This document shows, piece by piece, positions 16,736-35,897 of a stretch of DNA of 36,271 bases; position 1 is the stretch's first letter; each line of letters starts with the position of its first letter. Position numbers and translations under genes: made by a program. Under the pieces are notes generated by a model. The model was given only the letters and a program-made list of their open reading frames with translations. It made no database searches and was not told the origin of the DNA. Location of the stretch: contig SULG01000029.1 in NCBI GenBank assembly GCA_005524015.1, positions 1-36,271 of the forward strand, in the 5' to 3' direction. Origin of the DNA: Candidatus Jettenia ecosi. Its GTDB lineage: Bacteria > Planctomycetota > Brocadiia > Brocadiales > Brocadiaceae.

Positions 16736-18274
16736 TTACTTCATCGCTACCTCCTTCCAGGCTGTTTCAATGGCTGCTTTCAGAGATTTATGAGTTTTCT
16801 CTGCAACGCGTCGGCCGTTCACAAAAACAGTTGGTGTCGAATTGAGTCCGAGCCGTAACGCTTCCATTCGGTCTTGCTTTACCCTATCAGCAAATTTCTC
16901 AGTATCAAGCGCTTCATCAAACATCTTTCGGTTAAGCCCCAATTGGCTTGCATACTCTTTCAGATTGTCGACATCGAGCGCTCTCTGATTCTGAAACAAA
17001 ATGGCAATATACTCCCAATATTTACCCTGTTCACGCGCAGCTTCAGCGGCAAGAGCAGCCTTATAGGCGTTGGCATGCCGCTGTAACGGGAAGTCGCGTG
17101 CTACGAGCCTTACCTTATTACCATATTCTTTCATCAGTTCCTCAAGGATTTCATGTAAATTTGAACAAGTCGAACATTCATAATCGATAAACTCCACAAT
17201 AGTTATTGTAGCATTCTCATTGCCTTTCGATGGCTGATCCTGAGTCGAGATGGCTTCAATAGAACGTTTTGGCGCAGCAAGAAAGACCTCCAGAGCAGCT
17301 GTCTGGCGTAATCGTTCAGTAAAAGCAGCCTTCGCCCGTTCTTCCTCGTGCTGTTTCAGATATTGAGTGATCTTACCCCTGTCAACTGCCATTCCGTGAT
17401 TGGCATCAATTTTATCTTTGTTCTTCATATAAAATGCCAGAATATCCTTCTTCGTTATTCTCTTCTGTTTCGAGGTAACTTCTGCATTCAGTAATTCCGG
17501 AATGGTAATATTCCTTCTCTGTGCCTCTTGCTGAAAAAGCAGATCATTTATCATGAGGTCAACGGTTTGTTTTTGCAACTCGTAGATCTGCTCTTGTACC
17601 TTAAAAATCTCTGGTTGAAGTTTTTTATCAATATCTTTCAGGGTAATCTTTTCGCCATTGACTACGGCAAGCACACGATCCGGCTCAGTAGTAACATCAG
17701 CAAGGGTCAGGTAGTCTACTACCGTCTGAATCTGAGCCTTAGAACGAAGGAGTTCGGCAAGTTTCTTTGCCTCCGCACTCTGGCGCTGTCTCTGAAGATA
17801 GTTTATAATCTGCTCTTTCAAGATGTTAAACTCCCCTGAAAGCTGGCTCTTGTTCTCGTGGTAGAAAGCCAACGCCTCCGCTTCAGTCGGTTCCCTGACT
17901 TTTGATATAACCTCGTCCTGGAGTATCCTGGCAGTATCAATCTTACGTTTTTTCGCCTCCTGATCCAGGAGATCGGAATTAATCTTAAGATAGAGTTCGT
18001 TTGATCGCGCATCGAGCAAGACCTGCTGAATTTCGAATACAGAGTCTCTGATCTTCTCAGTAACCTCTTGCCGGGTAATGATTGTGCCATTGACTACAGC
18101 AATAGCATGAGGTGGTATTTCCATATCACAATCCTCATTACTCTCCTGTTTTCCCTCGGATTCAATTGTTAACGTTCCTTTCTCTTTTTCCGATGCAGCA
18201 TCAGCCTGAAACAGAAATACTGTGCCGTATACCATGATCTTTGCGAAAAGAAGTAATGATAGTTTATTCATCAT
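16736..18274 (-). CDS. Secreted SurA/PpiC-like plus DsbA-like thioredoxin-fold protein
   Basis: This 512-residue exported protein has a signal sequence (LSLLLFAKIMVYGTVFLFQADA, 5-26). Two related chaperone-like repeats follow, each starting with AVVNGTIITRQEV (about 59) or AVVNGEKITLKDI (about 204) and continuing as the helical SurA N-domain pattern. No PpiC catalytic parvulin domain is evident. The C-terminal 150 residues are a DsbA/DsbG-type thioredoxin fold with ITIVEFIDYECSTCSNLHEI (CxxC about 366-369), the late cis-Pro segment NSTPTVFVNGRR and a helical insert. It probably handles disulfides or presents copper ligands in secreted partners. It faces the same way as the Sco/oxidase block but lies 1 kb away. 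Confidence 0.88.
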   Translation of the reverse strand: MMNKLSLLLFAKIMVYGTVFLFQADAASEKEKGTLTIESEGKQESNEDCDMEIPPHAIAVVNGTIITRQEVTEKIRDSVFEIQQVLLDARSNELYLKINSDLLDQEAKKRKIDTARILQDEVISKVREPTEAEALAFYHENKSQLSGEFNILKEQIINYLQRQRQSAEAKKLAELLRSKAQIQTVVDYLTLADVTTEPDRVLAVVNGEKITLKDIDKKLQPEIFKVQEQIYELQKQTVDLMINDLLFQQEAQRRNITIPELLNAEVTSKQKRITKKDILAFYMKNKDKIDANHGMAVDRGKITQYLKQHEEERAKAAFTERLRQTAALEVFLAAPKRSIEAISTQDQPSKGNENATITIVEFIDYECSTCSNLHEILEELMKEYGNKVRLVARDFPLQRHANAYKAALAAEAAREQGKYWEYIAILFQNQRALDVDNLKEYASQLGLNRKMFDEALDTEKFADRVKQDRMEALRLGLNSTPTVFVNGRRVAEKTHKSLKAAIETAWKEVAMK

Positions 18275-19281: not shown

Positions 19282-20019
19282 TTATTGCAATTTTACCCAA
19301 TCACTGGCGCTGATAACCTTTTTTTCTTCAGGATCTACTAATGCTATATAGGCTCCCAGTGCGCCGATGCGCCGATTCGGACCGAAGGTTATCTGCGGTG
19401 TTAAACCAGTCTCAAACTCATACAATCCCTCAAGTACAGCTACCAGTCTTTCACGACTCACATCCTTACCGGCACGTTTCAGCCCCTCGGCAAGTATTTT
19501 TGCTGAACAATAAGCTTCGATCTGAACAGGTAAGTGCTGTGCAGGAATTTTGTGTTTTTCAGCAAAAGAATGATATTCTTTCACGGAGGCGCGAATCATA
19601 TCAGAGGGCCCCCGGGGAAAGGACAGAAAAATCTTATCTCTAAAGCCGGCAGAGACCGTGAGAATTTCCTTATCGATCAATGGACCAGGAATGAAAACAA
19701 AAGGTCTCCATTGAAGCCGCCCGGCTTTACTCAGCAAGGCTTTTTGCTCATCTCCTGAGCCAAGGAAAAAGATTGCATCTATCTCTTTCTCATTCATCTC
19801 TCTCACAAGACGTTCAGCCTCGAATTGATCATGCGGGTATGTGAGTATTATCCGTGAATCCCAGCCATTTTTTTTGCACTGCTCATCGATCGCATGGGTA
19901 ATTTCCGAAAAAACTTCACCGCCGGCAGAAAGGATTGCAATATGCGGATCCTCTGCGCCAAACTTCTCCGATGCAAATTCAACCAGAGCAAGAGATAGTT
20001 CTTTCACACCAGAGAACAA
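19282..20019 (-). CDS. 3' part of frameshifted cytochrome c/periplasmic binding fusion
   Basis: These 245 codons continue the previous frame after a shift near 20020. They encode most of a type I periplasmic binding fold of the branched-chain amino acid/Peripla_BP_6 kind: HIAILSAGGEVFSE, AIFFLGSGDEQKALL, SVKEYHSFAEK, IEAYCSAKILAEGLKRAG, and a terminal FGPNRRIGALGAYIALVD. Alone it lacks a signal peptide and the first lobe. It should be read with the 5' part as one exported protein of about 550 residues. The nominal TTG start is an artefact of the broken frame. The ligand is unknown. Confidence 0.8.
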   Translation of the reverse strand: MFSGVKELSLALVEFASEKFGAEDPHIAILSAGGEVFSEITHAIDEQCKKNGWDSRIILTYPHDQFEAERLVREMNEKEIDAIFFLGSGDEQKALLSKAGRLQWRPFVFIPGPLIDKEILTVSAGFRDKIFLSFPRGPSDMIRASVKEYHSFAEKHKIPAQHLPVQIEAYCSAKILAEGLKRAGKDVSRERLVAVLEGLYEFETGLTPQITFGPNRRIGALGAYIALVDPEEKKVISASDWVKLQ

Positions 20020-20933
20020 ATAAAAATATACCGGTTCAAGGGAAAATCCACCTGAGGAAAATTTGTTATAGCGCCCACAAGCGGAATTTCACGTTCCTGT
20101 ATAAGTACATCAATTTCTCTCTCTGATCCCTCAATGAAAGCGCCATTGATAGCGAATACTTCTTCCTCAAGAAGAGACATCACATTCGCTTGTGTTGCTG
20201 CAGGGGTATCTCCTGAGGCTGAAAACCTGAGCTCAATCCGGCGGTTGTAAATCCCGCCATGTTCGTTAAGGTCATGAAAATAGGACTGTAATACCTCTTT
20301 CATGGCCATTGCCATCTCTGCCGGAAATTCTTTACCCGGCAAAATAGCCCCTACCCGGATACTCGTATCCGTCAACCCCGGCTCCTTTTCTTTTCCTAAC
20401 CGCTTGAGATATACTATAAGATTATTAACCTCTTCCCGGGTGAAACGGTAGACGGGCATTACAGGAGACAATTTATTCCCTGACGGATCGATTCCCTTAA
20501 CAATGGCTTGCCGGAGAAGCCGGTCCGTATAAGGCGGATGCTTTCTCCCGTTAGGATGAGTAATGCCATAGGGTTTCATTAAGAAATCCCCGGTTATATC
20601 AGAAGGTAATACCCCGCCTTCAGGTCTGCCTTTACCATCATATCCATGACAGCTTACGCATGGTAGCGCGCTGGCTGGCACTTCTGTTGTGTCATTACCC
20701 AATAACGCAGTAATCTCACGGCCTGAGGCAGAAGAGCCAAGCAGGTAGATCTGTTTTCCCTGTCTCTCCTGAGGCGTCAAGTGCCGGTTTACGACCGTTT
20801 CGGCAGATACATGATTCTTCAGATAAACAATTGCGATAGTTGCCAGTATCCATGCCACGAAAATCTTCAGAGGCATACCGGTGTTAAGCCAGGAATGTCT
20901 CTGTATTGGCTCCAAACCTTTAATTGATACCAT
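20004..20933 (-). CDS. 5' part of cytochrome c/periplasmic binding fusion (frameshifted)
   Basis: An N-terminal membrane or signal segment (PLKIFVAWILATIAIVYL, about 21-38) is followed by a class I c-type haem domain with CVSCH (residues 92-96) and a Met ligand near SPVMPVYRF. From about residue 190 it becomes the first lobe of a type I periplasmic binding protein (RVGAILPGKEF). At 20020-20030 the frame should read ...YIFYLFSGVKEL but reads YIFICSLV and stops. One extra T in a run of five T would restore it. The start overlaps the twin-Sco gene by 14 bases, so the two are coupled. Cytochrome c/ABC substrate-binding fusions occur next to quinoprotein or copper enzymes. Function here is inferred as periplasmic electron transfer or sensing. 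Confidence 0.85.
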   Translation of the reverse strand: MVSIKGLEPIQRHSWLNTGMPLKIFVAWILATIAIVYLKNHVSAETVVNRHLTPQERQGKQIYLLGSSASGREITALLGNDTTEVPASALPCVSCHGYDGKGRPEGGVLPSDITGDFLMKPYGITHPNGRKHPPYTDRLLRQAIVKGIDPSGNKLSPVMPVYRFTREEVNNLIVYLKRLGKEKEPGLTDTSIRVGAILPGKEFPAEMAMAMKEVLQSYFHDLNEHGGIYNRRIELRFSASGDTPAATQANVMSLLEEEVFAINGAFIEGSEREIDVLIQEREIPLVGAITNFPQVDFPLNRYIFICSLV

Positions 20934-22269
20934 CGTTAAGCACTCCCTCTACCATAGGAATAAGCTCTTGAGCCTTTGCCAACCCCATCGCCTTTTTCCA
21001 GAGTCCCGTTGCATCATTGCCGATAAGGAATAGACCACTGTGCTGATCTCTTTCTTCGACAAAAAAACCGAGCTTATAGAGGGCCTGATCCACATTCTCT
21101 TTTTTCCCGGACAAGAAATACCAGCCGGGTTTTGCATGATAATTCTCAGCATACTGTTTGAGCCGTTGTGGCGTATCGGTAATCGAGTCAACACTGATGG
21201 AAATAATGTGCACATCCTTACCTAAACGTTCACCCACAGCCTCTTGAATTGCCAGCAGGTTTTTGCCCATGACAGGACAGATGCCAGTGCATTCGGTAAA
21301 AAAACAGTTGATAATAACGACCTTTCCCTTGATCAGATCGCTGTAAAACCGCATCTTCTCTCCATACTGATTGATCAATTCCACATCGGAAAAATATTTC
21401 TGTGCCGCCGGATTTCTCCCCTGCATGGCAGCGTTTTGTTGTACCTCTCCGGCAAGCCTCATGGCGTCGCTTCCGGCAACTGGTTCTCTTTTATCTTTTC
21501 TTGCCCTATCCTTTTCTCCGGACAATTCTTTCTTCGGGTTATCCAGCATATCCTCAATGACCTGGACTAGTTGAGCTGATGGCACAAGACCGTTAATCCG
21601 CGTCCATTGTCCCTTCGCTTCATTACCCACAAGGACGAGAGGAGAATGGTCCTCCTTTATCGGGGTAAAGACCTTCAGTGCTTTAAGGAGCTTGTCTACA
21701 TCTTGTTTCTTCCCGGTAAGGAAGGTCCATCCCGGTTTTGCCCCGAACTTCTCTCCCCAGGCCCTGAGCCTCTGAGGGGTATCATTTACAGGATCGACGC
21801 TGATAGAGATCAGATGGAAGTCCCTGCCGGTGCGATTGCCCATGAGATTCTGGACTTTAGAGAAGTTAACGCTCAGGGGAGGACATATCGTGGTACAGGT
21901 GGTAAAGATGAAATTTATAGCTACCACTTTGTCTTTTACCAGGTCACTGTAGAAGCGTACCTTCTTTCCTTCCTGATCCAGGAGTTCCACATCCGGTATC
22001 TTCATGGTTAAAGTTGCCGCAACCTTACCCCCCTCTTTCTGTGCTTTTTTTTCAGGTGGACAGCAAGACTTCTGTTCTGTGCTTTCCGGGGTTTCTGCCT
22101 GAATAGCTTGTTTCGGCTGTGAGGGAACTGACTTAATCTCGTCCTGGGAAAATGATACACCTGACCACAAAAAACAGACCGCCGGCGCCAGTAATTGCCA
22201 TGATCTGAGTACCCTTTTTCTGGACTCTTTATCGGAACAGATGAATTTTGACATTTCTGCAATCTCCAC
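20920..22269 (-). CDS. Tandem Sco1/SenC domain copper chaperone
   Basis: This 449-residue exported protein has a signal region (SWQLLAPAVCFLWSGVSFSQ, about 23-42) and then a CCPP-containing linker. Two complete Sco domains follow. The first (about 93-245) has FTTCTTICPP with the CxxxC copper pair near 125 and the His in DHSPLVLVGN. The second (about 290-447) has FTECTGICPVMGKN near 328 and the His in DQHSGLFLIGN. Sco proteins deliver copper or reduce cysteines during CuA assembly. No cytochrome oxidase gene is present, so the adjacent multicopper oxidase is the obvious client. It is followed with a 14-base overlap by the haem-binding fusion. Confidence 0.93.
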   Translation of the reverse strand: MEIAEMSKFICSDKESRKRVLRSWQLLAPAVCFLWSGVSFSQDEIKSVPSQPKQAIQAETPESTEQKSCCPPEKKAQKEGGKVAATLTMKIPDVELLDQEGKKVRFYSDLVKDKVVAINFIFTTCTTICPPLSVNFSKVQNLMGNRTGRDFHLISISVDPVNDTPQRLRAWGEKFGAKPGWTFLTGKKQDVDKLLKALKVFTPIKEDHSPLVLVGNEAKGQWTRINGLVPSAQLVQVIEDMLDNPKKELSGEKDRARKDKREPVAGSDAMRLAGEVQQNAAMQGRNPAAQKYFSDVELINQYGEKMRFYSDLIKGKVVIINCFFTECTGICPVMGKNLLAIQEAVGERLGKDVHIISISVDSITDTPQRLKQYAENYHAKPGWYFLSGKKENVDQALYKLGFFVEERDQHSGLFLIGNDATGLWKKAMGLAKAQELIPMVEGVLNDGIN

Positions 22270-22415: not shown

Positions 22416-24503
22416 TTACCCTTTGCTGGCAACCTGTAAGATTAAAGGCGGCAATTGGTTTAACCGGACGTTGAGCGATGGGCACTGGAAGGAGATATAA
22501 TATGCTCCTGCCTTCGGGGGTGTGAGATCAATTTGATAGATACCATCACCCACAGGTCTCGCCCATTGCCGGTTCTGCCAGTTACCGGAAGTAAACGCTA
22601 TAACACCGAAGTCCTTCAGCCCAACCCTGGGTTGATCAGTTCCCGGGTCAATAACCTTGAACAGCAATTGTACATGCTCCCCCGCATAAAGGGTTTTCTT
22701 CTCCAGCATTGGTTCCACCCGCAGGGGCAGATGTTTATCCTTTTTCGATATATCCGGATTATCCCTCACGTTGACCGGAAAGCAGTGAATAATGCGGGGG
22801 GAATCCATAAAAAGGATAAGATCAAGTTTTCCGTTAAGGGTAAGCCTGGTATTTGTTGCATAGACGCCTGCTTCCACTTCTTTGAGGCTCCGGTCAATGA
22901 CCAGAATAGCCCGCGGCTGGCACCCATAGTTTCGAAAATTGCCCATAGGCGCTGCCATTCCTTCCTGATAATAGTAGATGGCTTTGTCGACCGGATTAGC
23001 TACAAGAACCGCCCCGCCTCCGGGAGCGGAAACAATGCTGTCGGCGATACTGAGGCTTTGAGCCTTGCCGAAAGGAACCTGGCCACCGCTGAAATCGCTG
23101 ACGGGAACAGGCGCCCCCTCATGTCCAACCTGGTCAAGCGGAATCATGAGGACCGATTCGCTGCCCCGCGATCTGATGTAGGCAGTGTTTTCCGTAAAAG
23201 TTACCTGGTCCGGCTCCTTTCCAGCGTCACCGGTTTGTATAATACGATGGGTTGAGGCATCAATAATATGAACGCTATTTTCACGGGAGTTTACCGCGAA
23301 TCCAAGACGTCCGTTACGGGTAAAGCGCAGGACTCCAAGTCCGGGTTTCGCTTCGATACGATTTACGATCTCAAGGCTCTTGCTGTCAACAACGAGAATC
23401 GTTCCATCCTCTTCGTTTACTACATAGGCCGCCTCGCTGAGGGCAGAGTAAGCTATCGAGACGGGCATTCTGCCACTCTGAATATCTCTGATTTTATTTA
23501 GTTTCCAGATATCGATAATGGAAACGGTGCCGTCATCCCGGTTGGTCACAAGGGCATAGCGGTCATCTCCGGTAAAGGCTATCTCGTGATGTCCTGCACC
23601 GGTGGGAATATGAGCCACTTTCTTCAATGAAACAGTGTCGATAACCGTCACACCGCTTGTTGTATCCAGGGTATCAGCAGCGCCATCAGCGCCAACCCAG
23701 AGGTACTTTTCGTCCGGCTGCAGCGCTATGCGCATGGGTCTCTGACCCGTATCGATGTTGGTAATAACCTTCCAGGTTGCGGTATCGATAACTGCAATCT
23801 GATTCGTCTGGGGCATAGTAACAAAGAGTCTCCTCTGATCCCGGCTCATAACCCAATCCTCACCAGGACTTTTCAAAGGGACCCTTGTCAGCAGATTGCT
23901 GCCGCCATAATTAAAGAGGGGATCAACTACCGAAATACTCGCTTCATCATTGAGCGTAAGGACATAAAAGATATTCAAGTCGATTTCAGCCCGCGAGGAA
24001 AGGCTGCCAGACAGGAGCGATTGTACCTTCTTCGCACAGTCATCCGTTGTGGACGGTTGAATCCACGCTGCAGGGTCGAGCGTGGTTACCGGAGCGCCTG
24101 TCGTAGTATCAGTGACCCTGAACTGTACGGTAACATCATCACCCTCTTTAAGTTCTTCAGAAGTCTTCTCTCCGGAGACAACAGGGATTATTGAAAATTC
24201 CACAGCAATTCCCTCCCGGGCGATTTTTTTTGCTTCTTCATCTGCTTCTCCGGAGGTTAATGCATTACTCGTGCCGGTACCTCCCTCCTGTGCAGGAGCG
24301 GAATTGGGATTGCCGGAGGCTGATGCCACATCTGCCGTTCCTGGCTCCTTTTCAGGAACTGATAGTCCTTCTTTAGCCACACTGCCCTGAAATGAGGCAT
24401 CGCAGGAGAGGAGAAAGAGGCAAATCACTGCTGAACAGAAAAGCGCAAACTTTTTGCCAGCGTATCCCGTGAGCTTAATTCTGATAAAGAGGCATTCAAT
24501 CAT
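22416..24503 (-). CDS. Beta-propeller lipoprotein (YVTN/cytochrome d1-like) with Ig-like flanking domains
   Basis: This 695-residue protein has a lipobox LLSC at residues 31-34, indicating lipid anchoring at Cys34. Residues about 95-145 form an Ig-like or FixH/YtkA-like domain. A seven-bladed YVTN-type propeller follows, with repeats such as NQIAVIDTATWKVITNIDTG, SGVTVIDTVSLKKVAHIPTG and GTVSIIDIWKLNKIRDIQSG. A second Ig-like domain ends the protein (MLEKKTLYAGEHVQLLFKV to SFQCPSLNVRLNQLP). There is no CxxCH, so it is not a haem d1 cytochrome itself. The setting suggests a scaffold or partner of the oxidase and Sco proteins on the periplasmic or cell surface. Confidence 0.88.
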   Translation of the reverse strand: MIECLFIRIKLTGYAGKKFALFCSAVICLFLLSCDASFQGSVAKEGLSVPEKEPGTADVASASGNPNSAPAQEGGTGTSNALTSGEADEEAKKIAREGIAVEFSIIPVVSGEKTSEELKEGDDVTVQFRVTDTTTGAPVTTLDPAAWIQPSTTDDCAKKVQSLLSGSLSSRAEIDLNIFYVLTLNDEASISVVDPLFNYGGSNLLTRVPLKSPGEDWVMSRDQRRLFVTMPQTNQIAVIDTATWKVITNIDTGQRPMRIALQPDEKYLWVGADGAADTLDTTSGVTVIDTVSLKKVAHIPTGAGHHEIAFTGDDRYALVTNRDDGTVSIIDIWKLNKIRDIQSGRMPVSIAYSALSEAAYVVNEEDGTILVVDSKSLEIVNRIEAKPGLGVLRFTRNGRLGFAVNSRENSVHIIDASTHRIIQTGDAGKEPDQVTFTENTAYIRSRGSESVLMIPLDQVGHEGAPVPVSDFSGGQVPFGKAQSLSIADSIVSAPGGGAVLVANPVDKAIYYYQEGMAAPMGNFRNYGCQPRAILVIDRSLKEVEAGVYATNTRLTLNGKLDLILFMDSPRIIHCFPVNVRDNPDISKKDKHLPLRVEPMLEKKTLYAGEHVQLLFKVIDPGTDQPRVGLKDFGVIAFTSGNWQNRQWARPVGDGIYQIDLTPPKAGAYYISFQCPSLNVRLNQLPPLILQVASKG

Positions 24504-25276: not shown

Positions 25277-28200
25277 TTACTCTTTAACCCGCATGATACC
25301 CCATATTCCGCCATCAAACTGGAAGGACATCATATCACGCCAGAGATAATCACCGGCAACTCCAAACTTGCCGCCGGCGCCGTTCTGGAGCACAACATCA
25401 AAATGGTTCGTCGGGCCGTGGCCCATTCTGGCGCCCTCAAACATAGTCAACCATTTACCCCCCAGCTTGTTATCGCCAATCCGTGTGGAATTATTCTGGT
25501 ACGGCAACTCCTGCCAGACATGACCGTGCACCATAAATACGTGGTTGCGCGTATGGCCCCCCGGCTGAAGCACCCTGAAACGGACCGGTGTTCCTTTATC
25601 AACCGTAAAGACAGGGGTTTCCGGGTCCTTATCTCCGACCTGTGCATTCGTAAGCGCATTGGCAAAGTCAACGGTCCGGGTAAATGTCAAAGGCGCATCC
25701 GGAGCAAAGCCCATTCGGAACCACATCGGCTCACTGCGATAGTTGACGGCCTTCTGGCCTGAATCCCATGAATCTTCAGCCTCTGCTGTGTCAGGTACCG
25801 CCCCATTATCGGCAATAGTACCGTCACCCAGTTTATCACCATAGCGAAAATTGATGTCATCCTGGAATAAAGTAACAAACTCACGGAATAAAAGGTTATT
25901 ATTTGCATCATAAATATTGGCAGCCATACGGGATTTTCTGTTCTGGTTCAGATCGAAATCGGTCTTCCATTTCGACCCTTGCGGTTCAATGATTAACGCC
26001 GCAACCGCCCCTTTATTGCTGTGTTTGATAAGGTCAGATGATGATATGTTTATGCTGCCAAATTCTACCGGTTTTGCATCCAGGGTTCCATCTGGCTGCA
26101 AATCCAGGTGACCTGCATACCATCGATATCTTTTACTGCTTCCCGGCTTGGTAGCCTGTAAACTGTTGTAACCAACGTTGACACCATCATGTCTGGCAAC
26201 GTCGTAACTTACCAGTTGCGGGTGCAGTCCCGTGTAACTGGAAGGCCGAACCTGGTTGCTGTTGAAGTGCTCTACCATCATCGGCATCTTGCAAAAGCCA
26301 GGCAAATCGGGAGCTGCTCCTGATGGGAGCTTGTTCCTGAAGGTTATTTCGATACAATCGCCGGCATTTGCTCGCAGAACCAATGGTTCTACCGGAACAT
26401 TCGGCTTCAGTTTACCTTTATCGGCGCCCGATGTTATCAGATCGCCGTTGAAAACGAAGAGTATTGCTGTAGGGTCATGGAGCGGCCCGTCATTCTCTTC
26501 CCGGGAATTATACACCAATGTTTTCTCTTTCAGGACATCCTTAGCAAGAACCGCCGATACTGCATACGACCGCACCGGCGCCGAATCGGGACAAACACCC
26601 TCAAAATCATCGGCATTGGCAATCTGATCATTCAAAATTTCCATGTTATTAGGCAGTGGCATGAGATCGTCCTGCAGGTTTTTGTATGCGCGCAAGATTC
26701 CCCAGCAACCATTCCACAGACCATCCGCTGAAGAATCCGGTTTATAGAGGTAATCGTTAAACCGCCTGCCGCTGGTGGTTTCAACCTTTATAACAGGCGC
26801 TATCATTTCAAAATGCTCGGAGATACCCATCATCTGAGAACTGCGATAGCCCGAGTTTGTCCAGTCAGGTTCATAGAGCCACTTGAACCCGTGGATGGAG
26901 AAATTATGCCCCTCCTCCTGGGCGCCGACCATGACGCGAATCTCGACCTTGTCATTTTGGTAGACACGCAAGAGAGGTGTGAAAGGATCTCCGCGTTTCG
27001 CGCCCTGAGATGCCGTTGCGTTCGGATAAGGCCAATTACTTGGAGAAAGGTTAAAGGCCGGATCGGCCCTGGTTACATCGGAACGGAAGGCGTAGGAAAG
27101 ATCGCCTGCCTTATCCGTTGCCTGGGTATTGGTACTCGGCTTGCGAATCCGCAAGGCAATCGGTTCGTTGCGGTTATTGATCGAAAAAGTACCGACGTCA
27201 TCCGCTGAAATGGCTTCAGGGCAAGGGAGTGGTTCTCCTCCGGGGCATTCCTCAACCCTTTCAACCACGAAGGGAAGACCGACTTCCTTCCTGCCAGGCG
27301 GATTGATTGCCAGATCCGGTTGGTTTGGTTTATCGAAACCTCCTCCAGGCTGGCGGGCAACACCATTCCACGGCTTCGGGAAAACAGGGCCTCCCTTGGA
27401 AGGCAGTTCGGGATGACTCCCAGCCTTGTACGCCAGTTGAAAATCGATGAACTCAAACATGAACTCACGGTAACTATCAGCGCCGTCTTCCCCTGCCAGG
27501 ATATCAGCCCGCCAACTGGTCGGCCCTCCGTCATCACGCGTTCCCATAGTATCACCACTTACCGGATCACGCCATGTTGATCCCTTGGGTTCGATAAGCA
27601 ACCCGGCATACAGGCCAGAATGCTGATTTGTCGACGGACTATAATGATCATGGGTATACACGGTGCGGAGGGTACGGTCACGTCCATTGAGGTTCAGAAG
27701 CGGATCCGCATACCAACGCTGGATTGTCGTCTGAGCCCCGTCAACATGGAAGAAAGGATGTGACTCTGCCTCTAAGTCATTGTGCATCTGTCCATCCGGG
27801 TCCAGAAGTCCGCTCTTACCGGTAGGATCAAAATGATTCAGCGCTTCAATTCTCTCTTTTACCTCGTCCGGACTAAAGGTGCCGTCCTCGTAGTTCCAGC
27901 CATTGCCCGACCCATCGGCAGACAACACATCGAATTTTACCAGATGGATGTGCTGCCCGAGAACATCGGTTGGTGTGCGGACCTGGAAGTCGTCTAACTC
28001 ATAGATATGAGGAATCAGGTTCGTGTGCCAGTATTCAACACAATCGCCACTGTTAGCGCGGAAGAACAAGGGTTCAGGCGCACGGGTCCCGTTATAGTAT
28101 GCCGACACGTCTTTCCACAGCGAGAGTATGCGTGCCTGCGGGAAGTGCCAGCCTGCCTTATTGAGGACATTATCGATCTGGATAGCCGCAGCCTTGTAAG

Positions 28201-30322
28201 TTCGAAGGGTTGTGATGGGGTTGCCCGAATCATCAACGCAAGGGTCTGCAAAGGGAGCCCCCGGCACCCGGGGCCGACCGTTCGTAACGAAATTGCCCGC
28301 AGCAACATTTCCGTTGAGGTCGACGGCAGAAGACGGATGATTTACCTGTTCGTGAAAACTCATGGCTGCCTTCTCAACATCCGTCCCATTCTCAGGAAGC
28401 TCCTGAGCCTTCATAGCCAGGATTTCCTTGGTGAAGTCAAGGCGCGTATGTACTTCCCTGGTAACGTTGTCGGGATCGCTGACAACGACATGCCTGGGCA
28501 GACCACCATCATGAAGGGTATCAAGCGGCGGATGGGGCGGCCGGTGGCCTGCAACACCGGGAACGAAGAACGGAAACCCGGGATTCCCGTTTCCCGTAAT
28601 CTGTACCGTGCTCGAATCATCAGTACCATCACCATTCGCATCGGCTGGTATAATGGTTACCCCTGCCCCCGGCATCGGCGCCATGGGCAAACCCGGCAGT
28701 GGTACCACTCCGGGAATCGGTGTGCCGGCTATAATCTCCCCGTCAGGCAGCTTGCGTGTGCCGTCCTCAAAAACGTCATGAACACGCCAGAGCGCCCACA
28801 TTCCCTGGGCGAAGTGCGGGTAGAAGTGGCAGTGGAAGATAGCATCTCCCGGGGTTCTGTTGCGGTTTCCGCTGCCGTTATAGCAAATCTCCGTCGTATA
28901 TGCGCTGCCGGGGCCAATGGCCTGGCTATCAAGGTAGGAGGAGTTATCGCTGTCGGGGCTATGTACCCACTGATGCGCATGGAGATGATGGATGTGGTGC
29001 TCCTTGGAACCAGCGTGGAGTATCCGGAATTTTACATGATCACTGAGATAGGAATGATAGACATTCGATGGATCATCAGGATAAAGAGCTTCAGTGGCAA
29101 CTGGTCCGGGTACCAGGGTATCCAGAGTATTTGGGTCTACTCTCAGATTAGCCGGATTATCAACCACCATAGCAGGATCGCCCACTGTCCACGAGCTTAG
29201 GAAGAACTCCTCATATTTGCACTCGGTGCAGTCCCACATCGGACCAACCCCGAGACGATTGGCAATAACCTCCGCGCCTGCGCCGCCAGCACCGTAGTTA
29301 ATGCCAAAACCATCCCGCACACCATGTAACGTATGGATAAGAACCGGGTTCTCGAAGAAAGCAGGAAACGCCTGTACGGCGCCGATCTCATCGTGGTACA
29401 TTATGGTAAATTCCCTGAATGGCTGATTACGGTTCGGATAGACGGGATTTGATAAGTAAGTGCCACTGGCAGGGACGATGATTGCCGTCAGGTCCGAGTG
29501 GACGATATTGTTGCCGCTATCGAGGATCTTTAAAACGGGGGTATTGGAAGGTATTAAATCCCCGGAAGGATACGTTGCCCCACCAGGGTAGACCTTGTTG
29601 TAGTCAATTTTAGGCTGCCAGGTAGGAGTTGTTGCCGTGGTGGCAGTCACTATGTCACTGGCCGTTATCTGGCTGCGAAACCATACAGAGTTTTTGGGCT
29701 CGACATTGACAGCACCGAAGAGGCCGCTGTTCAAAGACCCCCCGTCCCCCTCACCACCGGTTGTTGCTCCCGCACTATAAAGAAGATGGGTTCCTTCCCG
29801 CTCGGCATACAAGGTATAAACGGTAGAATCTCCGGGTTCAACGAGACCACTATTCTGATTATCGCCAACGTTTGAACCATCGTCAGCTATGCCGTTTACT
29901 AACTGCATACCGACTACATGTACCGAAGCGGCTCTCGTGGCAGGCTGCTGGTTATGCACAGGCGCGTTAGCCAGAAGATTAGTAAAGGTGATCTCCAGAC
30001 AATCACCCTCACTCATACGAAGAACAAGCGGCCGGGGTCGTTTATCTGGCCGGAGCTGGACGTTTCCAGGGGTTAATTCGCTCCCTGAGATTGGGATAAC
30101 GTCCCGTTTCAGCGCGAAGATCATTCCCTGTGGGTGATAAGCGCCAAGCCGGTTCCAGAAGAACGGCTGATCCAGAGCCACAACATCGGCTTTAATGGTT
30201 CTCTGGCACCCCGCTTCCGCAGAACTTCCCCAAAAAACCACCCCAAGAATCATTAGTAGCAGACTCATGGTAAACAATATCCCTGAGGTTCTTATAGTAA
30301 AATACGTTCGAACAGACATCAT
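25277..30322 (-). CDS. Very large secreted multicopper oxidase (MofA-like size and organisation)
   Basis: This 1681-residue exported protein has a signal peptide (GILFTMSLLLMILGVVFWGSSAEA, about 14-37) and several cupredoxin domains. Their starts repeat a similar phrase: LRMSEGDCLEITFTNLL, FRANSGDCVEYWHTNLIP, LRANAGDCIEITFRNKLP. Copper motifs include HHIHHLHAHQW (about 440-450), the T1-type HCHFYPHFAQGM (about 495-506), QHIHLVKFD, YTHDHYSPS, GHNFSIHGFKW and NHVFMVHGHVW near the C terminus. Size and domain number recall the putative Mn(II) oxidase MofA rather than 500-residue laccases; metal oxidation is a hypothesis. AAGGAGGG precedes the ATG. A riboswitch-terminator leader lies upstream, and Sco, haem and propeller genes follow. 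Confidence 0.92.
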   Translation of the reverse strand: MMSVRTYFTIRTSGILFTMSLLLMILGVVFWGSSAEAGCQRTIKADVVALDQPFFWNRLGAYHPQGMIFALKRDVIPISGSELTPGNVQLRPDKRPRPLVLRMSEGDCLEITFTNLLANAPVHNQQPATRAASVHVVGMQLVNGIADDGSNVGDNQNSGLVEPGDSTVYTLYAEREGTHLLYSAGATTGGEGDGGSLNSGLFGAVNVEPKNSVWFRSQITASDIVTATTATTPTWQPKIDYNKVYPGGATYPSGDLIPSNTPVLKILDSGNNIVHSDLTAIIVPASGTYLSNPVYPNRNQPFREFTIMYHDEIGAVQAFPAFFENPVLIHTLHGVRDGFGINYGAGGAGAEVIANRLGVGPMWDCTECKYEEFFLSSWTVGDPAMVVDNPANLRVDPNTLDTLVPGPVATEALYPDDPSNVYHSYLSDHVKFRILHAGSKEHHIHHLHAHQWVHSPDSDNSSYLDSQAIGPGSAYTTEICYNGSGNRNRTPGDAIFHCHFYPHFAQGMWALWRVHDVFEDGTRKLPDGEIIAGTPIPGVVPLPGLPMAPMPGAGVTIIPADANGDGTDDSSTVQITGNGNPGFPFFVPGVAGHRPPHPPLDTLHDGGLPRHVVVSDPDNVTREVHTRLDFTKEILAMKAQELPENGTDVEKAAMSFHEQVNHPSSAVDLNGNVAAGNFVTNGRPRVPGAPFADPCVDDSGNPITTLRTYKAAAIQIDNVLNKAGWHFPQARILSLWKDVSAYYNGTRAPEPLFFRANSGDCVEYWHTNLIPHIYELDDFQVRTPTDVLGQHIHLVKFDVLSADGSGNGWNYEDGTFSPDEVKERIEALNHFDPTGKSGLLDPDGQMHNDLEAESHPFFHVDGAQTTIQRWYADPLLNLNGRDRTLRTVYTHDHYSPSTNQHSGLYAGLLIEPKGSTWRDPVSGDTMGTRDDGGPTSWRADILAGEDGADSYREFMFEFIDFQLAYKAGSHPELPSKGGPVFPKPWNGVARQPGGGFDKPNQPDLAINPPGRKEVGLPFVVERVEECPGGEPLPCPEAISADDVGTFSINNRNEPIALRIRKPSTNTQATDKAGDLSYAFRSDVTRADPAFNLSPSNWPYPNATASQGAKRGDPFTPLLRVYQNDKVEIRVMVGAQEEGHNFSIHGFKWLYEPDWTNSGYRSSQMMGISEHFEMIAPVIKVETTSGRRFNDYLYKPDSSADGLWNGCWGILRAYKNLQDDLMPLPNNMEILNDQIANADDFEGVCPDSAPVRSYAVSAVLAKDVLKEKTLVYNSREENDGPLHDPTAILFVFNGDLITSGADKGKLKPNVPVEPLVLRANAGDCIEITFRNKLPSGAAPDLPGFCKMPMMVEHFNSNQVRPSSYTGLHPQLVSYDVARHDGVNVGYNSLQATKPGSSKRYRWYAGHLDLQPDGTLDAKPVEFGSINISSSDLIKHSNKGAVAALIIEPQGSKWKTDFDLNQNRKSRMAANIYDANNNLLFREFVTLFQDDINFRYGDKLGDGTIADNGAVPDTAEAEDSWDSGQKAVNYRSEPMWFRMGFAPDAPLTFTRTVDFANALTNAQVGDKDPETPVFTVDKGTPVRFRVLQPGGHTRNHVFMVHGHVWQELPYQNNSTRIGDNKLGGKWLTMFEGARMGHGPTNHFDVVLQNGAGGKFGVAGDYLWRDMMSFQFDGGIWGIMRVKE

Positions 30323-30436
30323 GATTGCCCTCCTTTTCTTCTTTCACTTCGCAAAACAATTCAGATAAAATTATTCGTGAAAATTGACAAAATCATTGTG
30401 TCTTTGCATTCCGCACAGGAGTAAATTTTTCCGTAA

Positions 30437-30581
30437 TTACTCAAAATAAGGTGCAAAACCTGGGTCGGGGAGAACCTTGTGTTCTCCCTGATCATGGGAA
30501 AACGCACAGGTCTTGAATTTACACAAAGGGTAGGCGAACACAAGGTTCGCCCCTGCGGTGATCCAACAGTATTTTGAGTAA
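30437..30581. mobile_element. 145-bp MITE-like element with TTACTCAAAATA ends
   Basis: TTACTCAAAATA (30437-30448) and TATTTTGAGTAA (30570-30581) are perfect 12-bp inverted repeats. Inside are GGGAGAACCTTGTGTTCTCCC-like and GGCGAACACAAGGTTCGCC hairpins. It lies in the oxidase 5' leader. Confidence 0.65.
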
Positions 30582-30583
30582 CT
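30560..30583. repeat. 24-bp direct repeat, oxidase-upstream copy
   Basis: Identical to 25074-25097. It overlaps the right end of the 145-bp inverted-repeat element. Confidence 0.7.
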
Positions 30584-30662
30584 ACATTTTCCCTATAAAA
30601 AATAAAAGGAATTGCAAACCTTCTTTATGACATTGTTCAGCCTCCTTTCTCACCATGAAAAC

Positions 30663-30714
30663 AAAAAAGCCTTACTGCAAAGATACTCATGGAAAATATC
30701 TTCGGCAGTAAGGC
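30663..30714 (-). terminator. Intrinsic terminator of the oxidase riboswitch
   Basis: On the minus strand GCCTTACTGC (30714-30705) pairs with GCAGTAAGGC (30678-30669). The stem extends through CGAAGATA/TATCTTTG and is followed by six T (30668-30663). Its 5' arm overlaps the 3' strands of aptamer helices P1 (30704-30694) and P2 (30720-30710), so terminator and aptamer cannot form together. Confidence 0.85.
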
Positions 30715-30820
30715 TATCTTTTATTCACCGTAGAGACGCATTATTATGCGTCTCTACCAGATTAAAGACCCTTTCCTTTGCGCCCCCTGATCGCTCAGGG
30801 TTTACCTTTGTCGAATATTT
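30694..30820 (-). promoter_or_regulatory. GEMM-I type cyclic dinucleotide riboswitch aptamer upstream of the multicopper oxidase
   Basis: On the minus strand P1 is AAATATTCG (30820-30812) with CGAAGATATTT (30704-30694). Then comes the GEMM core: GACAAAGGTAAACC, a hairpin CCCTGA-GCGA-TCAGGG with a GNRA tetraloop, and GGGGCGCAAAGG. P2 is AAGG(G)TCTT with AAGA(TAG)CCTT, enclosing a variable loop. The GGNAAACC, GNRA hairpin and GCGCAAAG pattern matches the consensus of class I c-di-GMP (GEMM-I) riboswitches, which also include cGAMP-sensing variants. Its layout with the terminator predicts that ligand turns transcription on. Confidence 0.87.
30730..30757. repeat. GTAGAGACGC mobile hairpin inside the riboswitch P2 loop
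   Basis: GTAGAGACGCA-TTATTA-TGCGTCTCTAC is a perfect hairpin of the family seen at 2291 and 14515. It lies in the P2 loop of the oxidase riboswitch. The sister riboswitch at 35640 lacks it and has a different insert. Confidence 0.8.
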
Positions 30821-30826
30821 ACCGCA

Positions 30827-30855
30827 CTATTATTTTGACCTTAAAAGCATATCAA
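30827..30855 (-). promoter_or_regulatory. Promoter for the oxidase riboswitch transcript
   Basis: On the minus strand TTGATA (30855-30850), a 17-base spacer and TAATAG (30832-30827) put the start about 7 bases later, at the 5' edge of helix P1. The sister module has TTGACA with the same spacer and -10. An overlapping TGGCATG-TAAG-TTGA resembles a sigma54 site but lacks the essential GC at -12. Confidence 0.65.
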
Positions 30856-31012
30856 CTTACATGCCAATTCCAGTTACCTGGTATTTTAAAGTTGAACAAA
30901 GGGGTATTGTTATTTTACGTTAACTTTGAAACCTATACGCAAAATATCACAAAAAGGAATAAAGTCAATATTATTTTGCCCTTAAATTATGAAATATAAT
31001 CGTCACGGCAAG

Positions 31013-31051
<39 letters not shown>

Positions 31052-31404
31052 AAAACAGGTAATAACCTATGGAAATGAAAATAGTTAACAAAATAGTTTG
31101 TAACCTGACGGATGACATTCTGCAGATTGTTATTTTTTTGCTAAAGACTATCGAAAAAATCTTATTTTGAAGTTTTATAGTACATCTGGACAAGGCGGCA
31201 CGGACAAGCCCCATATGCATCAAGCTAAAATATGGAAACGGTGAAGAATAATAAACCACCCATAATCCCCCTTGATCATCCTTTAAAAAAGGGGGAAATC
31301 CCTCGTACCTCTTTTCTATAGTAATGTTAAAACAAAATGTCGCTTTATTTTTGAGATCATGATAGTACAAAAATACCCTATAATTCAGAAGTGGTAACGG
31401 ATAA

Positions 31405-31631
31405 AATGAAGATGATCTCTATTTCAAGCCCGAAGGGCTGCCATGATTATAGATAATGAATAACCGCAAAATCAATAACCCTGAATGGGTGAAATGATTA
31501 TCAGAAAACAGAGGCAAATTCCCAGGCAATGACAGGTATCCACGGGTTTTCCATGCCACCCCTTCGGGGTTCAAACCCTTTCTTCTGCTTTTTTGCTATA
31601 ATCATACCATCCCTTCGGGATTATGAGACAA
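31405..31631. repeat. CCCGAAGGG/CCCTTCGGG composite repeat, copy 2
   Basis: Nearly identical to 13864-14091, in the same orientation and with the same order of sub-units. Confidence 0.8.
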
Positions 31632-31643
31632 AAATACCTTGAT

Positions 31644-31724
31644 AAGTACCTGACCACAAATTTTTGTACCTGTATCTTTGCATACAGGGATTTTCAGTAT
31701 GCAAAGATTTATGTTCAGGTACTT
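31644..31724. mobile_element. 81-bp hairpin element (AAGTACCTGA ends), copy 2
   Basis: It has the same length as 13781-13861 but is inverted. The arms include ATCTTTGCATAC/GTATGCAAAGAT, a perfect 12-bp inner stem. Confidence 0.75.
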
Positions 31725-31898
31725 ACTCTATCACTCCGTCTCTTTGGGATGAGGAAAAACTGATCTGTACTTTCTGAGAAATTTTACTCTACTCTGTGAC
31801 ATTTTGTTTTGAGATTACTATATCTTATCCTTACCCACATCTTTAGAATATCATAAATAGATGTCTCGACGGGGGCGTCTCTAGAGAAATTTTTATGT

Positions 31899-32130
31899 TA
31901 TAGTATCCAAATGACGAAACCGAACATATCATCAACTGAAGAAGGATTACCCTGTCTGTCATTGCGAGGGTAGTGTCCGAAGCAATCTCTTCTAAAATAT
32001 TCAAGGGATTGCTTCGGACACTACCCTCGCAATGACAGGTTAAGAATCCTCTCCATTTCACACACTTACCTATGAGCCAAAGATTCAACTTTCCCCACAT
32101 TCTGTTCGGTTTCATATGTTGGATGCTATA
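31899..32130. mobile_element. 232-bp MITE-like element, copy 2
   Basis: The ends are TATAGTATCCAAATGACGAA and TTCATATGTTGGATGCTATA. It is highly similar to 13457-13688 throughout, including the nested CATTGCGAGG hairpin at 31957-32037. Confidence 0.75.
31957..32037. repeat. TGTCATTGCGAGG hairpin repeat, copy 4
   Basis: TGTCATTGCGAGGGTAGTGT pairs with ACACTACCCTCGCAATGACA, the most perfect copy in the window. Confidence 0.8.
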
Positions 32131-32147
32131 TGTAAGCCTATTCCTGG

Positions 32148-32274
32148 GTGGCGCTGACAAACTCTGTTTGTCAGTGTGGTATATCTCATATCCACGTGTG
32201 CATTCGAACAACACGGACAAACCATGTCCCCGTTCAAGACTTATGGGGATATGGTTTGTCCGTGTCACCCTGTT
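32148..32274. repeat. GGGTGGC-GACAAAC inverted-repeat element, copy 2
   Basis: The ends resemble those at 1876-1971 (GTGGCGCTGACAAACTCTG and GGTTTGTCCGTGTCACCC), with internal hairpins. Confidence 0.55.
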
Positions 32275-32509
32275 TAGCCCTATCGCAATACTTAGATTTA
32301 CCTCTCTGACTTGTGGGTAAAGATAAGCTTTTTTAAAGGGGGAAAAGTTTGATATTTTTGATCAGGTAAACTTTTCTCAAGAAAAAATCCTTCCTTAATC
32401 AATTAACATCTCCCGATATTCGTGAAAACTCTTGAATGTCAGTTGTCAGTACTTGCCGGGCAACATACTCTATACAAAATCTCTTTGGAAGAAAAGGAAG
32501 AAGAATATC

Positions 32510-32537
32510 TTGTGAAATAAATTTATAATCATATAAT
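32510..32537 (+). promoter_or_regulatory. Promoter of the 873-residue propeller protein gene
   Basis: TTGTGA (32510-32515), a 16-base spacer and TATAAT (32532-32537) lie 75 bases before the ATG. The leader has a CCTTCAACTTTGAAGG hairpin (32567-32582), and AGAGGAG is the ribosome binding site. Confidence 0.55.
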
Positions 32538-32611
32538 AATTAAAATTATTTTACGGTAAAAGACCCTTCAACTTTGAAGGAAGATAAAAACAATAACTTA
32601 GAGGAGTAGAT

Positions 32612-35233
32612 ATGTTTTTTAACGCCAGGTATAAAAATCTTTTTATCTATTTGATAATCCTTGCTCTATTCACTTCCTTTTTGTCATCAGTAAGAGGTTC
32701 AAATGCTTTAGCGCACGATAATTTTTATGTCGGATTAGCCCGGATTATCAAGACTAGTCGTTTTAACATTCCAAATCCCGACGGTATGATATTCTGTTCA
32801 AAATCTAAGGCCTTTTTTGTTGTGGAGGCTTCTTTATCTGCTCAATCCTCTCATAATATCACAATGATTACTTCTACTGAAGAGTTGGTTGGTTCCCTCC
32901 CTATAGCAACTCGTATTACTGATCCAATAAATATGGCCTTTGATGATAAGGCCAATCGATTGCTCATCTTTCAGTCAGATACCAATATCCTGGTTGAAAT
33001 AAAGGCGGGGGCTGATGGCCATCTGGACCCTGATACCATTACCGAATTTGATGCCCGGAAATTTGGTCTTCAAAATCCACAGGGAATGACCGTCGACCCG
33101 AAGAATGGACATCTCTTTATCCTGGATAGCGCTGTACCAGAGATTGTTCATATCAAACCGCATCCCTGTCGGGGTTTTCATAATGCAAAGATTTCCCGCA
33201 TACACCTGGAGCAGATTGAGAAATCGGACCTTCGGGGCATTGCCTTCAATCGCGAGAATGGTCATCTCTATAGCCTGAATTTCCGCGAGCAGGCGTTATA
33301 CGAGTTTACCAGGGAAGGCAAGATTGTTACGACTTACCCTGTATCTGAATTTGAACTCAGGAACCCACGAAGTATGGTTTTTGCCCCCAGCGGAGATCAA
33401 ACTGATGATCCATCAAAGACCTGCCTGTATATTGTAGATCGCAATCATGATACAAAAGAAGATCAAAAGACTGAACTGTTTGAAGATATGCAGAAATATA
33501 CCGGTAAAGGAAAAGAGGGGAGACAAAGATACGGTAAAATTATCGAGTTGTCTTTTACTCAACCAGCTCTTATTGCTGCTACAAATACCACTTCCCTGAT
33601 ACGGACAATTGATACTTCCAAATTCTCACCCCCCAGTCCCGACCCATCCGGTATTATCTATCTTCCATTCTCTAACAGGCTTCTCATTTCTGATGGCGAG
33701 GTCGACGAAGTGCGCGCCTTTGCCGATGTTAATCTCTTTGAAATGAGTCTGGCTGGTAATCTGCTCGATACCCTGAGCACTATATCCTTTTCAAATGAGC
33801 CAGCCGGGATAACAATGAATCCCGATAACAGGCATCTTTTCATTGCCGATGATGCTGATCATAAGATATTTGAATTGGATCCGGGGCCTGATGAAAAATA
33901 TAATACCTCAGATGACATACTTACTTCTTTCGATACCAAGCCTTTCGGTAGCACCGATCCGGAAGGGATTGCTTACGATACCTCGCAGGGAGTGCTTTTT
34001 ATAGCAGACGGGTTGAACCGTGAAGTATACCGGGTTGCGCCAGGAAATAACGGTATCTTTGATGGTGTATCTCCATCGGGTGATGATCAGGTGACGCATT
34101 TCGATACGTTAAGTATCGGGGTGGATGACCCGGAGGGAATCGAATATAACCCGGATAATAATCGTTTGTATTTAGTTGGTAAGCCAAAAACACAATTGGC
34201 TGAATTAACGAAGGCAGGCGCCCTTAAGCAGATGTTCGATATTTCTGCGGCAGATGCCAAAAAGCCGGCCGGGCTTGCCTTTGGTCCTGATAGCCTGAAC
34301 CCGAATATGAAGAATATCTATATCGCTGCACGGGGACTTGATAATAACGATAATCCGACTGAAAACGATGGCAAGGTGTATGAGATTTCTCTGATCCCGG
34401 CTACCATAGGCAATCAGCATCCCACGGTTAGCGCAGGACCTAATCAGACAATTATTTTACCGGAAAACGTTTCTTTGGATGGTATGGTTTTTGACGATGG
34501 CCTGCCGGAGCCGCCCGACACAGTGGCCACCACCTGGAACAAGGCTAGTGGACCGGGTACGGTTACTTTTGGTGATGCCAATGCCGTCGATACAACGGCC
34601 AGTTTCTCAGAAGCGGGAACCTATGTGCTGCGCCTGGCTGCCAATGATACAGAGTTAAACACCAGCGACAGTATAACTATTACTGTCCTGGATAATCCGG
34701 GAGGGGTTGTCATAGACGTCAGAGTTGCGACAGGTTCAAACGATGCAGAAGAAAGAGCATCAGGCCGTATTATCCTTGATAGCACTGATCTTGACCTTGT
34801 CTTTGAGAAAAACAATCAAAAGGTGGGGATGCGTTTTACCGGAGTTGATATCCCGAAAGATGCAACAATCATCAGAGCCTATATCCAGTTTATGGCGGAT
34901 GAGATACATTCCGGAGCAACTTCACTGATCATTCAGGGGGAAGCTGTCAATAATGCTGCTCCGTTTACCTCCATTGAGGGGAATATATCATCCAGACCAG
35001 GAACAACGGCTGCAGTATCATGGTCGCCATCGGCCTGGCTAACAAAAGGAGAAGCTGGCCTCAATCAGAGGACGCCCAACATATCCTCAGTCATTCAGGA
35101 GATTGTGAGCCGCGCCGGATGGTCAAGCGGCAACTCGCTGGTAATTATTATTACGGGAGCCGGTAGACGTGTGGCTGAGTCATTTGAAGGAAACAGAGAA
35201 GGGGCACCATTGCTCCACGTGGTGTATAATTAG
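32612..35233 (+). CDS. Secreted NHL-like beta-propeller protein with PKD-like and C-terminal beta domains
   Basis: This 873-residue exported protein has a signal peptide (LFIYLIILALFTSFLSSVRG, about 10-29, cleavage near SNALA). Residues about 45-610 carry eight or nine propeller blades with a repeated phrase: NPQGMTVDPKNGHLFILD, EPAGITMNPDNRHLFIADD, DPEGIAYDTSQGVLFIADG, DPEGIEYNPDNNRLYLVG. Residues about 613-700 form a PKD/cadherin-like domain (HPTVSAGPNQTIILPENVSL to GTYVLRLAANDTE). The last 165 residues are a jelly-roll-like domain (DVRVATGSNDAEE to GAPLLHVVYN) like those of surface proteins. No catalytic motif is recognised. It probably acts at the cell surface. It lies between the two inverted riboswitch modules but has its own promoter and no aptamer. 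Confidence 0.9.
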   Translation: MFFNARYKNLFIYLIILALFTSFLSSVRGSNALAHDNFYVGLARIIKTSRFNIPNPDGMIFCSKSKAFFVVEASLSAQSSHNITMITSTEELVGSLPIATRITDPINMAFDDKANRLLIFQSDTNILVEIKAGADGHLDPDTITEFDARKFGLQNPQGMTVDPKNGHLFILDSAVPEIVHIKPHPCRGFHNAKISRIHLEQIEKSDLRGIAFNRENGHLYSLNFREQALYEFTREGKIVTTYPVSEFELRNPRSMVFAPSGDQTDDPSKTCLYIVDRNHDTKEDQKTELFEDMQKYTGKGKEGRQRYGKIIELSFTQPALIAATNTTSLIRTIDTSKFSPPSPDPSGIIYLPFSNRLLISDGEVDEVRAFADVNLFEMSLAGNLLDTLSTISFSNEPAGITMNPDNRHLFIADDADHKIFELDPGPDEKYNTSDDILTSFDTKPFGSTDPEGIAYDTSQGVLFIADGLNREVYRVAPGNNGIFDGVSPSGDDQVTHFDTLSIGVDDPEGIEYNPDNNRLYLVGKPKTQLAELTKAGALKQMFDISAADAKKPAGLAFGPDSLNPNMKNIYIAARGLDNNDNPTENDGKVYEISLIPATIGNQHPTVSAGPNQTIILPENVSLDGMVFDDGLPEPPDTVATTWNKASGPGTVTFGDANAVDTTASFSEAGTYVLRLAANDTELNTSDSITITVLDNPGGVVIDVRVATGSNDAEERASGRIILDSTDLDLVFEKNNQKVGMRFTGVDIPKDATIIRAYIQFMADEIHSGATSLIIQGEAVNNAAPFTSIEGNISSRPGTTAAVSWSPSAWLTKGEAGLNQRTPNISSVIQEIVSRAGWSSGNSLVIIITGAGRRVAESFEGNREGAPLLHVVYN

Positions 35234-35327
35234 TTCCGGCCAGCAGATTCTTTATACTGAATATGGGATAGGTCGTGATGTAGAGAAGGTAATTCAATTA
35301 TGTGGGAATGAACAGGCTGCCGGTAAA

Positions 35328-35372
35328 GTGTGACATGTCACACCCTTGTCTCAGACACACATCTGTGACAGG
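35328..35372. promoter_or_regulatory. Tandem TGTGAC/GTCACA palindromes
   Basis: GTGTGACATGTCACAC (35328-35343) is a perfect 16-bp palindrome. About 16 bases on, CTGTGACAGGGTCACACA is a second, near-perfect one. They resemble regulator operators of the CRP/FNR type in sequence, though the spacing of the first differs from the classic six. The regulator is unknown. Confidence 0.4.
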
Positions 35373-35604
35373 GTCACACAAGGTGTATCATCTTCGCACA
35401 TTAAAAATTATTAAAATCATGTAATAATTTTAATAAGAAATACCTTGCCGTGACGATTATGTTTCATAATTTAAGGGCAAAATAATATTGACTTTATTCC
35501 TTAACTTATGATATTTTGCGTAGAGGTTTCAAAGTTAACGCAAAATAACCATATCCTTTTGGTAAACTTTAAAATACTATAGGTAACTGGAATTGGCATG
35601 TAAG

Positions 35605-35633
35605 TTGACATGCTTTTAAGGTCAAAATAATAG
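35605..35633 (+). promoter_or_regulatory. Promoter of the second riboswitch transcript
   Basis: TTGACA (35605-35610) is a consensus -35, followed by a 17-base spacer and TAATAG (35628-35633). The predicted start is at about 35640, the first base of helix P1. Conservation with the oxidase module supports it. Confidence 0.7.
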
Positions 35634-35639
35634 TGCGGT

Positions 35640-35799
35640 AAATATTCGACAAAGGTAAACCCTGAGTGATCAGGGGGCGCAAAGGAAAGGGTCTTGTAAC
35701 CGTGGACAGTATTCGTGAATAGTGTCAGTATAAGGAACTGACACCCACACTCATACCTGACACGATAGAAATAAGATAGCCTTACTGCTGAAGATATTT
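35640..35799 (+). promoter_or_regulatory. GEMM-I type cyclic dinucleotide riboswitch aptamer, second copy
   Basis: P1 is AAATATTCG (35640-35648) with TGAAGATATTT (35789-35799), where a G-U pair replaces the G-C of the oxidase copy. The core is GACAAAGGTAAACC (35648-35661), a CCCTGA-GTGA-TCAGGG GNRA hairpin (35660-35675) and GGGGCGCAAAGG. P2 is AAGG(G)TCTT (35687-35695) with AAGA(TAG)CCTT (35773-35783). The loop holds an unrelated insert with GTGTCAG/CTGACAC pairing. The neutral changes in P1 and the tetraloop support a maintained RNA structure. Confidence 0.87.
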
Positions 35800-35830
35800 T
35801 CCATGAGTATCTTTGCAGTAAGGCTTTTTT
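35779..35830 (+). terminator. Intrinsic terminator of the second riboswitch
   Basis: GCCTTACTGC (35779-35788) pairs with GCAGTAAGGC (35815-35824), extended by GAAGATA/TATCTTT and followed by six T. As in the oxidase copy its 5' arm is shared with aptamer P1 and P2, which predicts anti-termination on ligand binding. Confidence 0.85.
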
Positions 35831-35897
35831 GTTTTCATGGTGAGATAAGGAGTCTGAACACTATCATAAAGAAAGTGCACAATTCCTTTCGTAAGAT

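Follow-up and report, generated by a model that had tools for sequence, protein, structure and literature searches.

The window analysed here, a 36,271-nt stretch of contig SULG01000029.1 from Candidatus Jettenia ecosi (GCA_005524015.1), carries on its minus strand a gene cluster headed by a multicopper oxidase of 1681 aa (25277–30322). It is followed by a YVTN-type beta-propeller gene (22416–24503; syntenic in loci L029–L031), a SCO1/SenC copper-chaperone gene with two SCO stretches in tandem (20920–22269; PF02630, 2.6e-39; adjoining the oxidase cluster in L029 and L030), a cytochrome c/periplasmic-binding fusion and, at the cluster end, a gene for a DsbA-like thioredoxin protein (16736–18274; PF13462, 1.4e-31; present in L029). 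These genes would be co-transcribed. The fusion is split into an N-terminal part (20004–20933; PF00034, PF13458) and a C-terminal part in another frame (19282–20019), is one 555-aa ORF in L031, and thus reflects a frameshift (19282–20933) of either the genome or the assembly. Two outward-facing cassettes lie 5' of the oxidase: cassette A (30605–31015, minus strand), consisting of a conserved upstream block, an aptamer and a terminator, and cassette B (35441–35889, plus strand), its inverted second copy. Between them is a gene for an 873-aa NHL/PKD beta-propeller protein (32612–35233, plus strand), and the start of an NHL/PKD paralogue, the putative target of cassette B, occupies the contig end (36250–36271, plus strand). 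The 3.86-Mb genome (G000) encodes hydrazine synthase alpha (PF18582, E 6e-29), so that the host is an anammox bacterium, a group that works in granules and biofilms. It was compared with two congeners, G001 and G002 (one assembly of 3.8 Mb in one contig, the other of 4.1 Mb in 4 contigs), and with the sister genus G009.

The original prediction, made from this DNA alone, described the first gene as a giant multicopper oxidase. By sequence comparison, its product is homologous to the manganese oxidase MnxG (NF041487, 1481.5 bits; PDB 9bxa, E 4.7e-119), with similarity across almost the whole length. Several His/Cys motifs that may be copper ligands align between the two, for example HCHFYPHFAQGMW against HCHLYPAFGIGMW. 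Given that the score lies below the NF041487 equivalog cut-off of 3100 bits, we consider it a homologue and do not file it as MnxG; manganese would be a candidate substrate. Its neighbours (propeller, SCO1 and cytochrome c) also distinguish it from MnxG. Oxidase and propeller genes are also direct neighbours in three distant clusters, from a groundwater planctomycete, a deltaproteobacterium and an unplaced MAG (identity 50–56% and 40–46%), some of which include partner genes for SCO1, cytochrome c and DsbA as well. At E<1e-100, the oxidase was found in 3 of the 209 planctomycetote genera sampled and in no further Brocadiaceae genus searched. The DNA fetched around oxidase homologues of other genera and phyla, which comprised limited flanks, yielded no c-di-GMP-I element, and the idea that the switch belonged to the ancestral oxidase cluster is accordingly unsupported. 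As far as sampled, a switch on the oxidase is a feature of the window's genus only. In G001, the oxidase reading frame is broken near residue 1566–1570 (G001:C1:669130–669145).

When the window was searched with every Rfam family (cmscan), two matches were returned, both to the c-di-GMP-I (GEMM-I) riboswitch: copy A, 5' of the oxidase (30816–30701, minus strand), and copy B (35644–35792, plus strand), which the original prediction had not named. Copy A matches the full RF01051 model (1–87) with 50.2 bits (E 4.3e-07), above the gathering threshold of 35 bits and under the 67–87 bits of canonical copies; copy B also spans model positions 1–87 (45.0 bits). The proposed GEMM-I assignment of copy A is thereby near certain. 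The core parts that had been drawn by eye are all present, namely AAAGGTAAACC, a GCGA-capped hairpin (30800–30785, minus strand; CCCTGA-GCGA-TCAGGG) and GGGGGCGCAAAG, together with P2. The stem pairs of the hairpin covary across the family, 65 of 66 members have a GNRA loop, and the GCGA loop and covarying stem of copy A suggest putative GNRA docking into P2. Both copies retain the ligand-pocket nucleotides G20, A47 (in CGCAAAG) and C92 (Vc2 numbering). All 66 family members inspected have G20, and their core reads GGTAA throughout. Position 20 sets the preference between c-di-GMP and cGAMP (PMC6456294), so the retained G20 predicts c-di-GMP as the likely ligand. A GEMM-Ib-like element sensing 3',3'-cGAMP would have an identical fold, and Geobacter relatives that respond to cGAMP govern metal-respiration genes (PMC6456294); however, cGAMP preference accompanies A20, and with G20 in every member inspected we regard cGAMP sensing as improbable.

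An intrinsic terminator follows copy A (30715–30663, minus strand), with outer arms AGCCTTACTGC and GCAGTAAGGCT followed by T6. As had been predicted, it reuses the 3' strands of the aptamer helices, its 5' arm being common to the 3' strand of P2 and the adjoining side of P1. The leader folded to the terminator end has a minimum free energy of –65.9 kcal/mol with the terminator and –53.8 kcal/mol when the terminator 3' arm is held unpaired, a gap of 12 kcal/mol. Together with the shared strand, these values indicate that the aptamer and terminator states compete and that the terminator wins unless ligand energy is added. A terminator formed from the aptamer's own 3' strand is the arrangement of the pilM ON switch of Geobacter, which has been studied by experiment (PMC9262584), and it was found in 32 elements of four genomes, copies A and B among them (copy B terminator, 35778–35830, plus strand). 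The suggestion of an ON switch thus holds as geometry, and this direction is likely for copy A. It also resembles the Geobacter metallireducens pilM switch in its aptamer core and GNRA hairpin, whereas pilM senses cGAMP and copy A is predicted to sense c-di-GMP, its distal P2 bears a REP palindrome or, in orthologues, an extension of about 75 nt, and its target is a multicopper oxidase.

Considering these data, copy A very probably works as a transcriptional ON switch of the c-di-GMP-I class for the oxidase operon. The 5' leader would fold into the GEMM-I aptamer during synthesis; with c-di-GMP bound, the aptamer 3' strand (P2 and P1 side, GATAGCCTTACTGCCGAA) would stay within the aptamer, the terminator would be blocked, and polymerase would continue into the MnxG-like oxidase and its SCO1 and cytochrome c partners. 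Without ligand, GCAGTAAGGC would take the aptamer 3' strand and transcription would end at the U-tract. The twin cassette would act in the same way on the NHL/PKD beta-propeller surface protein, and with the same logic in both, oxidase and propeller should rise together as c-di-GMP rises.

The distal P2 of copy A is extended by a REP-like palindrome, GTAGAGACGCATAATAATGCGTCTCTAC (30730–30757, minus strand), a feature absent from the original prediction; the genome contains 44 exact palindromes of this pattern. Dispersed perfect copies (GTAGAGACGCA..TGCGTCTCTAC) include one at 2291–2318 of the window. The G001 and G002 orthologues of copy A carry a different P2 extension of up to about 75 nt. 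Given this difference between orthologues, the distal P2 can be swapped, as would suit a loop lying away from the ligand pocket. Searching with the extension of about 75 nt, the 'type B' also present in copy B, yielded ten riboswitches and one decayed riboswitch, and nothing else. For type B, we therefore rejected the notion that every P2 insert is a mobile element, since 10 of its 11 genome copies lie in riboswitches and the 11th in a decayed one; as a reading of the dispersed type A palindrome, we retain it. The decayed riboswitch (L117, 1450–1640; G000:C1:99512) keeps the P2 extension and lacks the aptamer core and the terminator 3' arm, a joint loss in keeping with a switch that couples the two.

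G000, G001 and G002 all keep the oxidase together with both cassettes and the intervening NHL/PKD gene; the paralogue truncated by the contig end exceeds 1097 aa in G001. In the window, cassettes A and B are 92–93% identical, the P2 insert excepted. Over the 240 nt 5' of the aptamer, the two cassettes share 98.3% identity within G001 and 100% within G002, compared with 73% between these two species; the G000 pair is 85.5% alike, and each of its members is 77–82% alike to the other species. Just past the terminator the pattern is reversed, with orthologous flanks at 93–94% (lower for G000 copy A, owing to its insert) and paralogous flanks at 70–75%. The segment between the cassettes (about 32400–35430 of the window), including the 873-aa propeller gene, is inverted in G001 relative to the window and G002 (L150, 3440–8560, against window 30605–35889), and this may be an ongoing or a fixed event. 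The high within-genome identity and the G001 arrangement would both follow from gene conversion and one or more inversions between the oppositely oriented cassettes; judged by these alignments, the cassette copies recombine.

The promoter placed in front of the aptamer could not be confirmed: a TTGATA is present at 30855, but it has no clear –10 partner (9 of 12 matches, 18-nt spacer), and the four promoter-like sites found compare with 2.4±1.8 in shuffled sequences. Between the terminator and the oxidase ATG, G000 has a leader of about 340 nt. It contains a MITE-like insert of about 150 bp (about 30431–30586) with inverted ends GTAGTTACTCAAAATA and TATTTTGAGTAATTAC, which both congeners lack. 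The copy A core and terminator are conserved in both congeners and identical between G000 and G002 at 111 of 111 positions, compared with 76.7% identity in the upstream DNA, which indicates that the RNA is under constraint; in G001, G45 is replaced by A where position 22 is U, so the pair is kept. The ambiguous promoter, the insertion in the leader and the decayed copy elsewhere in the genome could suggest that the aptamer is a relic, uncoupled from termination or behind a dead promoter, with the operon driven from elsewhere, for instance from the 340-nt leader. Perfect conservation of core and terminator between two species amid drifting surroundings and retention of both copies in three species argue against this, and we consider it quite unlikely.

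The ON switch proposed for copy A belongs to a large set. About 28 c-di-GMP-I elements were detected in G000 (26 over gathering in the first search), and a pattern search of this genome recovered no additional copies. The congeners have 24 and 21, the G002 count being a lower bound since its two copies at the oxidase locus were missed at first and recovered by cmscan; another genus of the family has 21 and the remaining relatives 0–8. The start of the terminator 5' arm is bimodal, lying 14–26 nt before the aptamer end in 32 elements and at least 4 nt after it in 25, and each of the four genomes has both kinds. The separate kind resembles the OFF layout of Cd1 (PMC9262584). In G000, overlapping terminators precede genes for SBBP and NHL/PKD propeller proteins, matrixin and the oxidase, and separate ones precede polysaccharide export, PilM, prepilin-like, sugar transferase and CapD-like genes, target assignments being tentative where the first clear gene is 0.8–2.4 kb off. 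Canonical copies precede genes for a histidine kinase, response regulators and beta-helix proteins.

In G009, folding energies strongly suggest OFF control, the P2 5' strand pairing with the terminator 5' arm at –14.7 kcal/mol (swapped controls, –5.6 to –6.5). The same pairing reaches –7.7 kcal/mol in the separate-type elements of the window's genus, 17 of 18 of which keep AAAGTAAAGG; it is weak relative to G009, and OFF geometry is accordingly less certain for these copies, for which we stop short of a strong OFF claim. Both the G000 copies with separate terminators and the G009 terminators, whose 5' arm can pair with the P2 5' strand in the manner of OFF switches, could favour an OFF reading of copy A, in which ligand stabilises termination. 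Its terminator 5' arm starts inside the aptamer, however, making the ligand-bound aptamer and the terminator mutually exclusive, and we regard OFF control of copy A as highly improbable. The G009 elements with this OFF geometry include L179, L180, L181, L183 and L184 (terminator 5' arm AAAGACCCAAGC), and aptamers occur in tandem at two G009 loci.

Like the GEMM-Ib regulons of Geobacter, in which G. sulfurreducens has 17 GEMM-I elements (PMC6456294), this genome has many elements, several of them over extracellular redox and surface genes. Here, in contrast, the host is an anammox planctomycete with 28 elements of c-di-GMP type according to G20, in both ON and OFF geometries and with an inverted cassette pair. 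Higher c-di-GMP leads to more Mn(II) oxidation in Pseudomonas resinovorans biofilms, by way of peroxidase (mop) gene expression and a PilZ protein rather than a riboswitch on a multicopper oxidase (PMC9765421). Aggregation of anammox bacteria has been examined with respect to c-di-GMP (Guo et al. 2017, as cited in PMC8851195). In line with the original prediction, we found no description of the riboswitch/oxidase pairing, or of riboswitches of anammox bacteria, in the open-access literature, with subscription papers mostly outside the search; the switch type is known, and the controlled gene and the network size appear to be undescribed. Tentatively, c-di-GMP-I may have multiplied in one anammox genus to about 28 cassettes of two polarities, switching on surface propellers, matrixin and the MnxG-like oxidase and switching off genes for type IV pili and polysaccharide. 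These cassettes would recombine and so share sequence with one another, and one inverted pair among them would stay homogeneous while turning round the DNA that it encloses. With nearly 30 riboswitches, a candidate regulon can be named directly from sequence, one that includes a giant copper oxidase unexpected for an anaerobe, and every element is testable in vitro without growing the organism. Nine GGDEF proteins are encoded in G000, in keeping with c-di-GMP control, and a canonical c-di-GMP-I element precedes a gene for a response regulator that also has a methyltransferase domain and part of a GGDEF domain (L034, 1881–3590; G000:C87), which is possibly a feedback gene.
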